From assembly GCA_020352895.1 (NCBI GenBank), contig CP070685.1, positions 2,845,724-2,878,781 of the forward strand: a DNA stretch of 33,058 bases, read 5' to 3'. Origin of the DNA: Phycisphaerales bacterium. Its GTDB lineage: Bacteria; Planctomycetota; Phycisphaerae; UBA1845; G020352895. Both the position numbers and the translations under genes were made by a program. The notes below the pieces were generated by a model, which was given only the letters and a program-made list of their open reading frames with translations, had not been told where the DNA came from and did no database searches. This document shows, one piece after another, positions 14,304 through 17,346 of the stretch (positions are counted from its first letter, which is position 1; each line of letters begins with the position of its first letter).

Positions 14304-15110
14304 ATGGCTAAGAGATGGATTCTGACGACGGCGATCGGTATGGCAGCCATCGCGCCGGTCTGGGGACAGACTGCCCAGACGAGCGGACAGAGTTCAGCCG
14401 CCGATCTTGGACGCTCGATCCGCGAGCGGCAATCTCTGCGGGGCCTGGGCCAGCCAAGCCAGATCCAGAAATGGCTGAATCAGAACGTCGAGAGCGTGAG
14501 CTTCGACGAGGAGCTCTTCGAGGACGTGATCCGCTGGTTGCGCGAGCGGCCCGGCGAGGTGAACATCGTCGTGGAGTGGAATGTCATGGAGGGTCTGGGC
14601 GTAGATCGCGAGATGCCCATCACGCTCGAACTGAAGAATGTCCCGCTTTCCAAGGTGTTGCAGTTGGTGCTCAAGCAGGCGGGCGTGGACGTGCCCCTGG
14701 GTTATCGCGGCGAAGAGAATATTCTGACCATCACGTTGGAGGAAGAGCTGAACGCGCCCAGGAATTTTGTGATCCGCACCTATCAGGTTACCGACCTGGT
14801 CCGCACCTTCATCAACTTTGACAACCCTCCGTCGATTCGGTTGAGCAACCTTCAGCAGACGACGAGTGGCGGCGGTGCGGCGAGCAGCAACCTGTTTGCG
14901 GATGACGACGACGACGAGCAGGACGAGGAACTCGAGGAGCGCGTGCAGGCCATCATCGACATGTTGGTCGAGACCATTGAGCCGGAGACCTGGAGCCAGA
15001 ACGGAGGCCAGGGCACGGCCACGGCCGTCCGAGACGTGATCATCATCAACAACTCGATCGCCGTGCACGAGAAGATCGGAGGCGCCGTCCGGCTCCGGCC
15101 GGGTCGGTAA
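14304..15110 (+). CDS. Exported stand-alone STN (secretin N0-like) domain protein, copy 1
   Basis: A 268-residue protein with a signal peptide (RWILTTAIGMAAIAPVWGQ). Residues about 53-148 resemble the secretin/TonB short N-terminal (STN, N0) domain: VSFDEELFEDVIRWLRE, then ITLELKNVPLSKVLQLVLKQ and LGYRGEENILTIT. A second part (about 155-262), RTYQVTDLVRTF, an acidic patch DDDDDEQDEE, EPETWSQNGGQGTATAV and NNSIAVHEKI, looks like the follow-on N1-type module seen in planctomycete secretin-like proteins. No secretin pore domain follows. Start: ATG 14304 with GGAGG six bases upstream. It has a strong promoter before and a terminator after it, and a paralogue of identical length at 15542. Confidence 0.75.
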   Translation: MAKRWILTTAIGMAAIAPVWGQTAQTSGQSSAADLGRSIRERQSLRGLGQPSQIQKWLNQNVESVSFDEELFEDVIRWLRERPGEVNIVVEWNVMEGLGVDREMPITLELKNVPLSKVLQLVLKQAGVDVPLGYRGEENILTITLEEELNAPRNFVIRTYQVTDLVRTFINFDNPPSIRLSNLQQTTSGGGAASSNLFADDDDDEQDEELEERVQAIIDMLVETIEPETWSQNGGQGTATAVRDVIIINNSIAVHEKIGGAVRLRPGR

Positions 15111-15138
15111 TCGCGTTTCAGGCCAAAATGGATCGAAT

Positions 15139-15172
15139 GCGGCGGCTCGCGGGTGACGCGGGCCGCTTTTCT
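15139..15172 (+). terminator. Terminator after STN copy 1
   Basis: GCGGC at 15139-15143 pairs with GCCGC at 15162-15166, with additional CGCG/CGCG pairing inside, followed by TTTTCTT. It lies 29 bases after the stop codon. Confidence 0.6.
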
Positions 15173-15180
15173 TCCCGTCC

Positions 15181-15320
15181 AGCAATCGCCTTCTGTAACC
15201 CCTCTCGTCCCTGCTCGAGCGGCATCCCTGGAACATGGCAGCGCTCATGCCAGCCGGTCGTTCCGAACCCGACGCGCACCGCCGATCGCTCTATCTTCAG
15301 GGCTCTCGCCAGCAGCTCTC
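15181..15320 (-). pseudogene. Remnant of a DUF167 (YggU-like) gene
   Basis: Read on the minus strand, this stretch gives ELLARALKIERSAVR, then CHVPGMPLEQGREGLQKA. The intact DUF167 gene at 16409-16708 has ALLAKALRIKPAAVR and CRVTGMQIEQVRQCLERA in the same order and spacing. The N-terminal half (expected at about 15320-15480) is no longer recognisable and I see no start codon that would restore it. It sits about 70 bases after STN copy 1 on the opposite strand, just as the intact gene sits 60 bases after STN copy 2. I infer a decayed copy left by duplication of the two-gene unit. Confidence 0.6.
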
Positions 15321-15541
15321 CTGCTGTCCTTGGTTGATTCCAAGCGCGCGAGGGAACCGGGACTGCGCCTGCCTGTCTAAAACCTTGGCCCCTTGGCTCG
15401 GTCAACGCGCTGGCGGACTGAGGGGTCCGGCGAAGACGTGAACCTGGGCGAGAAGGGCGATTCCTCATTCGGAAGTGTTGATTCTGGTGGGGTCCGCCTC
15501 ACGGGAATGCGTGCGGTGTGTGTGCAAATGGAGATCATCCC

Positions 15542-16348
15542 ATGATCAGTAGATGGATTCTGGCTGCGATGACGACCATGGCGATCAGCGCGCCCGGCTG
15601 GGGCCAGATCGCCGGCTGCACCGGCCAGGGTGCGGCGGCTGACCATGAGCGCGCCACGCACGAACGGCAGTCGCTCAGGATTATAGAACCCGAGTCACAG
15701 GTCCAGCGATGGCTCAACCAGAACGTCGAGCTTGTCAGTTTCGACGAAACGTCATTCGAGAATGTGATCCGCTGGTTGCGCGAGCTTCCTGGCGACATGA
15801 ACGTGATCGTCAAGTGGCACGTCTTGGAGGTCATGGGCCTGGACCGAGAAGCACCCGTCACGCTCGAACTGAGGAATGTCCCGCTCTGGAAGGTTCTGCA
15901 CTTTGTCCTTGAGCAGGTCAGTCCCGATGCCCCACTGGGCTATCGTGGCGAGGACAATGTCCTGACGATTACTACTGTAGAAGAGCTGAACGCTCCCAGG
16001 CACTTCATCATTCGCGCCTACCCGGTGACCGATCTTGTTCGGAACTTTATGAACGTCCGCAGCGCCCCATCCATCAGTCTGAGCGGCCTGCAGCAGATGA
16101 CCAGCGGCGGCGCCGCCGCGGGCACCAGCCTCTTTGACGACGGCGACGGCGAAGAAGGTGACGAGGCGCTGGTGGATCGCGTGCAGAGGGTCTTGGATAT
16201 GCTGGTCAACACCGTCGAGCCGGAGTCCTGGAGCCAGAACGGAGGCCGGGGCACGGCCACGGCCGTCCGCCACGTGATCATTGTCAACAACTCGATTGCC
16301 GTGCACGAGAAGATCGGCGGCGCGGTCCGGATGCGGTCGGATTGGTAA
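15542..16348 (+). CDS. Exported stand-alone STN (secretin N0-like) domain protein, copy 2
   Basis: A 268-residue paralogue of the protein at 14304. The two align end to end without gaps; a count by eye gives about 172 identical positions (roughly 64%). Signal peptide (RWILAAMTTMAISAPGWGQ), STN-like segment (VSFDETSFENVIRWLRE, VTLELRNVPLWKVL, LGYRGEDNVLTIT) and the C-terminal SQNGGRGTATAV and NNSIAVHEKIGGAV blocks are all kept. The acidic patch is present but less pure. ATG 15542 has GGAG eight bases upstream; a longer start at 15518 is less likely. No clear promoter was seen here. Function unknown; the STN domain normally mediates protein contacts in secretin or TonB systems. Confidence 0.75.
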   Translation: MISRWILAAMTTMAISAPGWGQIAGCTGQGAAADHERATHERQSLRIIEPESQVQRWLNQNVELVSFDETSFENVIRWLRELPGDMNVIVKWHVLEVMGLDREAPVTLELRNVPLWKVLHFVLEQVSPDAPLGYRGEDNVLTITTVEELNAPRHFIIRAYPVTDLVRNFMNVRSAPSISLSGLQQMTSGGAAAGTSLFDDGDGEEGDEALVDRVQRVLDMLVNTVEPESWSQNGGRGTATAVRHVIIVNNSIAVHEKIGGAVRMRSDW

Positions 16349-16408
16349 GGCGTCACAGGTTAGTGCGGGCAGCACGTGGCGGCGAGCAGAGGATGTGCAT
16401 CGTTCTGC

Positions 16409-16708
16409 CTACGGCTCGTACGCTCGCTCGAGACACTGCCGCACTTGTTCAATCTGCATCCCGGTGACGCGGCAGTACTTGAAGTGGCTGGCGGCTCCAG
16501 ACTCAATGCGGACGGCCGCAGGCTTGATCCTCAGGGCTTTGGCCAGGAGGGCGACAACCGCCTTGTTGGCCTTGCCCTTCTCGGGTTGTGCCGACACGGC
16601 CACCTTTAGTGCCCCGCCAAGCTCCCCCACGATTCGCGAACGCGAGGCCCCGGGCACCACCTTTACGCGGAACTGCACGTCCCCTTTCGTGCTGCTCAGT
16701 TCCAGCAT
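16409..16708 (-). CDS. DUF167 (YggU-like) family protein
   Basis: A 99-residue small soluble protein. The family pattern is clear: VQFRVKVVPGASRSRIVG, then LKVAVSAQPEKGKANKAVV (the conserved P-x-x-G-x-A-N motif) and LLAKALRIKPAAVRI. The biochemical role of DUF167 proteins is not established. ATG 16708 has GGAG nine bases before it. It follows the lipoprotein gene by 45 bases on the same strand, so the two may be cotranscribed, and it converges on STN copy 2. A decayed copy lies at about 15181-15320. Confidence 0.88.
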   Translation of the reverse strand: MLELSSTKGDVQFRVKVVPGASRSRIVGELGGALKVAVSAQPEKGKANKAVVALLAKALRIKPAAVRIESGAASHFKYCRVTGMQIEQVRQCLERAYEP

Positions 16709-16753: not shown

Positions 16754-17194
16754 TCAGTCCGCGCTGGCATCGGGCTGCTCGCCGGCTTCGGCCTCACCCT
16801 GCGTACTGGACGAGTCCTGATCTGCCCCGCCTGTTTCGATCCACTCCGGCCGTTCTATCTCCACTTTCACCGCCACCATCTGGACGTCGGATCCTTTGCC
16901 CTTTCGATAGCCGGTGACCTTGACCCGTTCCTTGAGCCGTATGTCCTTCAGTTCGGCCACGCGTCCGTTGATGAGGACCTCAGTCTGGTCGTTGACGATG
17001 CCTTCGATGATCTGCTCGCTTCCGGACTTCTTGTGGAAGAAGCGCAGGGCCACCTGGCCGGTGTCCAGGTTCAACTTCTCGGCCGTGCCTTCCAGTTGGC
17101 GGAACTCCGGTTCGTCGTCATCCTTTGAGCAACTTGGCAGCGTTATGAGAAGACCCGCCGCCATCACGGCTGGGAGCAACGTTCTTGTGGTCAT
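16754..17194 (-). CDS. Putative lipoprotein of unknown function
   Basis: A 146-residue protein. The N-terminus MTTRTLLPAVMAAGLLITLP is followed by SC, giving a lipobox-like LPSC with Cys22 as the probable lipid anchor. The body (about 30-120) alternates strands such as AEKLNLDTGQVALRFF, EQIIEGIVNDQTEVLINGR and ERVKVTGYRKG, suggesting a small beta-barrel like the OB-type DUF5666 domain. The tail is acidic and Gln/Glu/Ser rich. ATG 17194 has GGAG nine bases upstream; the longer open frame is rejected because it lacks a signal sequence. The DUF167 gene follows. Confidence 0.7.
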   Translation of the reverse strand: MTTRTLLPAVMAAGLLITLPSCSKDDDEPEFRQLEGTAEKLNLDTGQVALRFFHKKSGSEQIIEGIVNDQTEVLINGRVAELKDIRLKERVKVTGYRKGKGSDVQMVAVKVEIERPEWIETGGADQDSSSTQGEAEAGEQPDASAD

Positions 17195-17346
17195 CACCGT
17201 TCTCTCCGAATGCAGAAACCGCCCATTGCCCCGGAATCGGCCCCGCATGCTACCGCGCCGCCGGCGTGCTGTCGAACCACGTCCGCCTCCGCGATTCAAG
17301 GCGGCCGGCCCTTGCGGTCGATGACGGTAGCAAGTCGAGGAATGCC

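Follow-up and report, generated by a model that had tools for sequence, protein, structure and literature searches.

Tandem duplication of a gene for an exported secretin N-domain-like (STN) protein beside a partial copy of a DUF167 gene in a Phycisphaerales bacterium

The closest described systems to the proteins analyzed here are the N-terminal periplasmic domains of secretins (N0-N1 of PilQ and GspD, and the Amuc_1098 family), the STN signalling domains of TonB receptors (PupB, FecA) and of FecR, and DotD of the Legionella Dot/Icm apparatus. DotD is a small exported protein with a secretin N0 fold and no pore domain; it belongs to a type IVB system, where it is a lipoprotein of the outer membrane, and provides a precedent for a stand-alone N0-fold protein within a secretion complex (PMC2951367). 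The second protein at the locus belongs to the DUF167/YggU family (PF02594, TIGR00251). The titles and abstracts searched for the DUF167 family and for STN proteins of planctomycetes gave no function.

Here, we describe a locus from a Phycisphaerales bacterium (GenBank assembly GCA_020352895.1, contig CP070685.1) in which two genes for exported proteins, STN1 and STN2, lie in tandem with DUF167 sequence behind each. Positions refer to the window, that is, the whole stretch of 33,058 nucleotides that was analyzed. The features are as follows:

14304..15110, plus strand: STN1, an exported protein of 268 residues with a signal peptide, a domain predicted to have the N0/STN fold (about residues 52-150), a linker rich in Gly and Asp, and a second alpha/beta lobe
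14940..15077, plus strand: 3' part of STN1 (codons 213-258) in which synonymous divergence from STN2 is unusually low; the STN2 counterpart is 16178-16315
15187..15315, minus strand: DUF167 remnant, corresponding to residues 54-96 of the intact protein (44% amino acid identity, 60% nucleotide identity)
15316..15541, no strand: segment between the remnant and STN2, with no similarity to the N-terminal half of DUF167 or to the region upstream of STN1
15542..16348, plus strand: STN2, 268 residues, sister copy of STN1
16409..16708, minus strand: intact DUF167/YggU-family protein, 99 residues (PF02594, 73.5 bits; TIGR00251, 79.9 bits)
16754..17200, minus strand: gene for a small lipoprotein-like product, located upstream of DUF167 and read in the same direction, a pair conserved in family f2

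Pfam was rejected as the basis for the name STN, since STN1 falls below the gathering cut-off of PF07660 (13.6 against 28.4 bits, E=0.059) and STN2 has no match; the label rests on partial matches to NCBIfam secretin models and on fold comparison. These partial matches of STN1 are weak (Amuc_1098, 4e-5; PilQ, 1e-4), and a sequence profile search of the PDB returned only the N0 domain of PilQ, at a non-significant E=0.99. Within its own genome, STN1 has only three matches: itself, STN2, and a segment of a 1067-residue secretin (L082:3995-7198) whose pore domain lies at residues 871-1051 (PF00263, 9e-21). STN2 matches residues ~500-695 of this secretin (34%, E=2e-24), a segment upstream of the pore domain, and this similarity shows homology of the STN proteins to the periplasmic segment of the secretin. 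Unlike secretins, both STN proteins end after the N-domain-like segment at 268 residues; the pore domain PF00263 is present only in the 1067-residue protein. The alignment consensus shows that most members of the family begin with a signal-peptide-like stretch ending in A-x-A-Q. Most also have a linker rich in Gly (in Gly and Asp for the two window proteins), after which comes a second lobe that contains an invariant V-H motif.

The predicted STN model is well resolved in the core (residues 52-150, mostly pLDDT >85) and poor elsewhere, with a mean pLDDT of 69. Its top Foldseek hits in the PDB were PilQ N0 (4ar0; probability 1.00, E=5e-3), a FecR-type anti-sigma protein (4m0n), Dot/Icm core proteins, the PupB signalling domain and DotD; there were 0 hits at E<=0.001, and TM-scores were low. 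By comparison with PilQ N0 and the FecR-type, DotD and PupB structures, the model has an N0-like alpha/beta fold, and the N0/STN fold of these proteins is a prediction only. With TonB receptors and FecR, the STN proteins share this fold and, in some relatives, ECF sigma and anti-sigma neighbours, but they lack a receptor barrel and have no sigma or anti-sigma genes adjacent in the window. They differ from the DotD lipoprotein in having the Gly/Asp-rich linker and second lobe, and no sequence relation between the two was shown.

The original prediction described two proteins of 268 residues that align without gaps at about 172 identities. Indeed, BLASTP aligns STN1 and STN2 at 172 of 265 positions with 0 gaps (E=6e-124), and the genes are 75% identical over 651 bases at the nucleotide level. 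Separate lineages for the two genes, which would speak against a duplication, were examined in a phylogeny of 46 members of the protein family, taken from order-level Phycisphaerae relatives (the same order as the window, whose own family is f1). STN1 and STN2 are exclusive sisters with 100/100 support; their common stem is long (1.09), their end branches measure 0.25 and 0.26, and a repeat tree gave similar values. Their cores are 66% identical to each other and <40% identical to all other members, so that each is the closest relative of the other. The duplication and the sisterhood of the two copies are thereby shown, and the exclusive sisterhood makes the duplication lineage-specific.

Both copies appear to be under purifying selection and evolve at equal rates. 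Between them, dN is 0.243 and dS 0.953 by NG86 and 0.226 and 2.10 by maximum likelihood, which gives a pairwise dN/dS of ~0.11-0.26; relative-rate tests show a symmetric pair (p 0.12-0.85). Low dN/dS and symmetric rates support retention of both copies, in line with the earlier suggestion of selection to keep two STN proteins. In the stretch of codons 213-258 (14940-15077 in STN1, 16178-16315 in STN2), only 5 of 35 same-residue codons are changed (permutation p=0.0096), and this stretch is a possible gene-conversion tract.

Tandem STN pairs also occur elsewhere, in family f4 (G034, G038, G050, G067), f8 (G021, G045, G053) and f2 (G001). A topology that groups the upstream copies of the window, G053 and G034 pairs was rejected (AU p 5e-41), which indicates that STN genes were duplicated independently several times; an ancient duplication common to the families is ruled out by the tree and this test. 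Several of the other pairs have one faster copy (0.96 vs 0.20; 0.88 vs 0.23). In the G001 pair (L097:2803-4586), the frame of the second copy is broken in the Gly-rich linker, by a frameshift or a sequencing error. No DUF167 remnants were found beside the tandem pairs or single STN genes of other genomes.

Behind STN2, the DUF167 gene lies 60 nt past the STN gene on the opposite strand, and its product is a clear family member, with 73.5 bits against the PF02594 cut-off of 30.9. Conservation of the lipoprotein/DUF167 pair in family f2 makes the small lipoprotein-like gene a likely co-transcribed partner of DUF167. Behind STN1, the original prediction placed a C-terminal DUF167 remnant, to be abandoned if the minus strand of 15181-15320 lacked similarity to the intact gene. 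That similarity was found by tblastn (19/43 identities, E=8e-10): the raw score of 89 exceeds the maximum of 59 from 500 shuffles and of 47 from 206 other stretches of the window. A DUF167 profile built from relatives and the intact gene, with the remnant left out, ranks the remnant second in the window after the intact gene (E=7e-4). The remnant covers only residues 54-96, the C-terminal half, with no complete PF02594 domain above cut-off and no Pfam match, and it has lost the family's invariant Lys. Its short length of 43 residues and the missing Pfam call would suit a similarity that arose by chance or a piece of some unrelated sequence, but the tblastn E-value, a raw score reached in 0 of 500 shuffles, the independent profile match, and a strand and spacing that match the intact copy leave that reading a negligible probability, and the shuffles effectively rule out chance resemblance. 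The observation of duplicated STN genes with a DUF167 fragment is therefore real. The fragment sits within an ATG-start open frame of 116 residues (15118-15468, minus strand), which is probably a chance frame in G+C-rich DNA.

The remnant lies 76 nt past the STN1 stop, and the corresponding stretch of DUF167 lies 72 nt past the STN2 stop, which places the two STN/DUF167 blocks in register, as expected from in-register copying of flanking sequence. It is also closer to the intact gene (44% identity) than any of 32 DUF167 relatives (maximum 42%). Differences by codon position are nearer to even in the remnant (17/12/22 of 43) than in the STN genes (61/53/116 of 268). The N-terminal half of DUF167 is the better conserved half (median identity across the 32 relatives 57% vs 30% for the C-terminal half), and yet the 226 bases beyond the remnant carry no trace of it: its DNA score is 16 against a shuffle mean of 19, and its protein score is at background, reached by 280 of 500 shuffles. 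The C-terminal signal lies above 500 of 500. In simulations, an N-terminal half decayed to the divergence of the C-terminal half exceeds the 99% null in 96-99% of runs; detection drops to 75-84% at 45% divergence and to 31-52% at 50%. Because equal decay would have been detectable, the remnant was most likely cut inside the DUF167 gene, as far as these comparisons of sequence indicate.

The original claim that the STN/DUF167 pair was duplicated and one DUF167 copy then lost stands in part. Tandem duplication of STN with at least the 3' half of DUF167 is supported by the sister relationship, the spacing and the identity of the remnant; gradual decay of a full DUF167 copy is at odds with the traceless N-terminal half. 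Duplication of the complete pair followed by decay of one DUF167 in place through point mutation would account for a C-terminal half at matching spacing, and the divergence of the remnant, estimated from codon counts, is consistent with neutral decay on one branch. It would require an extra deletion or replacement to remove the better conserved half, and we consider it unlikely. Compared with decay of a whole copy, a duplication that ended inside DUF167 or a single deletion is the better fit; a full copy that lost its N-terminal half to an early deletion fits as well as truncation at birth.

Altogether, we propose that a tandem duplication within the lineage of the window would have produced STN1 and STN2. 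The duplicated segment would have extended from a point upstream of STN to within the part of the convergent DUF167 gene that encodes the C-terminal half. With its right end inside DUF167, a single step gives a half gene inside and a complete gene at the outer edge, so the complete DUF167 would be left at the right-hand end, behind STN2. The copy behind STN1 would have been truncated at birth or by one deletion and then decayed, and both STN genes would have been retained under purifying selection at equal rates. No similarity between the regions upstream of STN1 and STN2 was found when they were aligned for a duplication junction, as expected at such divergence, so we infer, rather than see, the endpoint of the duplication and the position of the breakpoint within DUF167. 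As a whole, this account, with the STN proteins kept as secretin-accessory proteins, is in our judgment probable.

Related genomes show whether the STN/DUF167 arrangement extends beyond this locus. The convergent layout recurs in three or four families: adjacent convergent genes are present in f7 (G024, G028, G040, G048), f8 (G017, G060, G069, G073, G075), the window itself (f1) and one odd f2 genome (G013). The flanks differ, with ECF sigma and anti-sigma genes and/or proC in f8 and HslV in f7. The same layout in related genomes, which the original prediction proposed as a check, is thus present, but "module" is too strong a word, given the opposite strands, the other neighbours of DUF167 (in f1/f2 the small lipoprotein gene that shares its strand, and in f8 proC), and the many relatives that retain STN with DUF167 missing or elsewhere. 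Persistence of the adjacency despite differing flanks could point to a functional pair duplicated as a module. Against this, none of the f4 loci examined has DUF167 next to STN: SHOCT and frequently ClpX accompany STN there, and DUF167, if present at all, is located elsewhere. The genomes G021, G025 and G063 have proC behind STN, and a search of each gave no DUF167. In G062, both genes are on the same strand. In two f7 genomes, the 3' ends of STN and DUF167 overlap by 25 nt, which could alone hold the genes adjacent. A functional pair is thus very improbable, and we read the adjacency as inherited synteny, in which DUF167 would be a conserved neighbour of STN with no functional partnership.

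Two further observations come from these loci. In G013 (contig C106, L096:269-946), a frame convergent with DUF167 encodes an RRM RNA-binding domain (PF00076, 3.6e-23), then a Gly-rich stretch, then the C-terminal half of an STN protein; either two genes have fused at the Gly-rich linker or the assembly is chimeric. STN lies near clpX in f4 (L073:8108-9388) and near hslV in f7 (L067:7503-8264), both of which encode ATP-dependent protease components, and this proximity may be coincidence.

The STN proteins are related to the N-terminal periplasmic segment of the genome's secretin but stand alone. We infer their partner and function: as DotD is thought to do in its own complex, an exported STN protein could pack, as an accessory subunit, against the N-domains of that secretin in the periplasm (type IV pilus or type II-like). 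The likeliest role is thus that of a periplasmic accessory part of a secretin machine, and two copies could raise the dose or serve two different partners. The gene for the 1067-residue secretin lies away from the STN genes, and no pilus genes were found among the neighbouring proteins scanned beside it. Gene order in four f8 genomes, where ECF sigma and zf-HC2 anti-sigma genes lie directly upstream of one or two STN genes (L070:4333-5858, L065:6159-7708, L076:3649-5168, L077:4200-5675), is compatible with another role, that of a periplasmic sigma regulator acting on the anti-sigma and sigma factors in the manner of FecA/FecR/FecI and lacking a TonB receptor; FecR-type and PupB signalling domains are also among the fold hits. 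No such pair lies beside STN in the window or in the compared f4 and f7 loci, the gene upstream of the window pair is by sequence a DEAD-box helicase, and the window ORFs gave no match to the f8 sigma and anti-sigma genes. We therefore regard a sigma regulator as unlikely. Similarly doubtful is the broader notion that Phycisphaerae hold a widespread stand-alone family of exported secretin N0/N1-like proteins serving as soluble periplasmic signals or adaptors, tied in some lineages to ECF sigma/anti-sigma pairs and repeatedly diversified through tandem duplication.

The duplication is an ordinary event of a common kind, in a poorly known family, and its practical weight is modest. The locus clearly illustrates how a tandem duplication, with an edge that apparently fell inside a convergent neighbour, can leave one copy as half a gene, in this case probably from its origin. 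It also draws attention to a widespread exported secretin-N-domain-like family in Phycisphaerae that has been recurrently tandem-duplicated.
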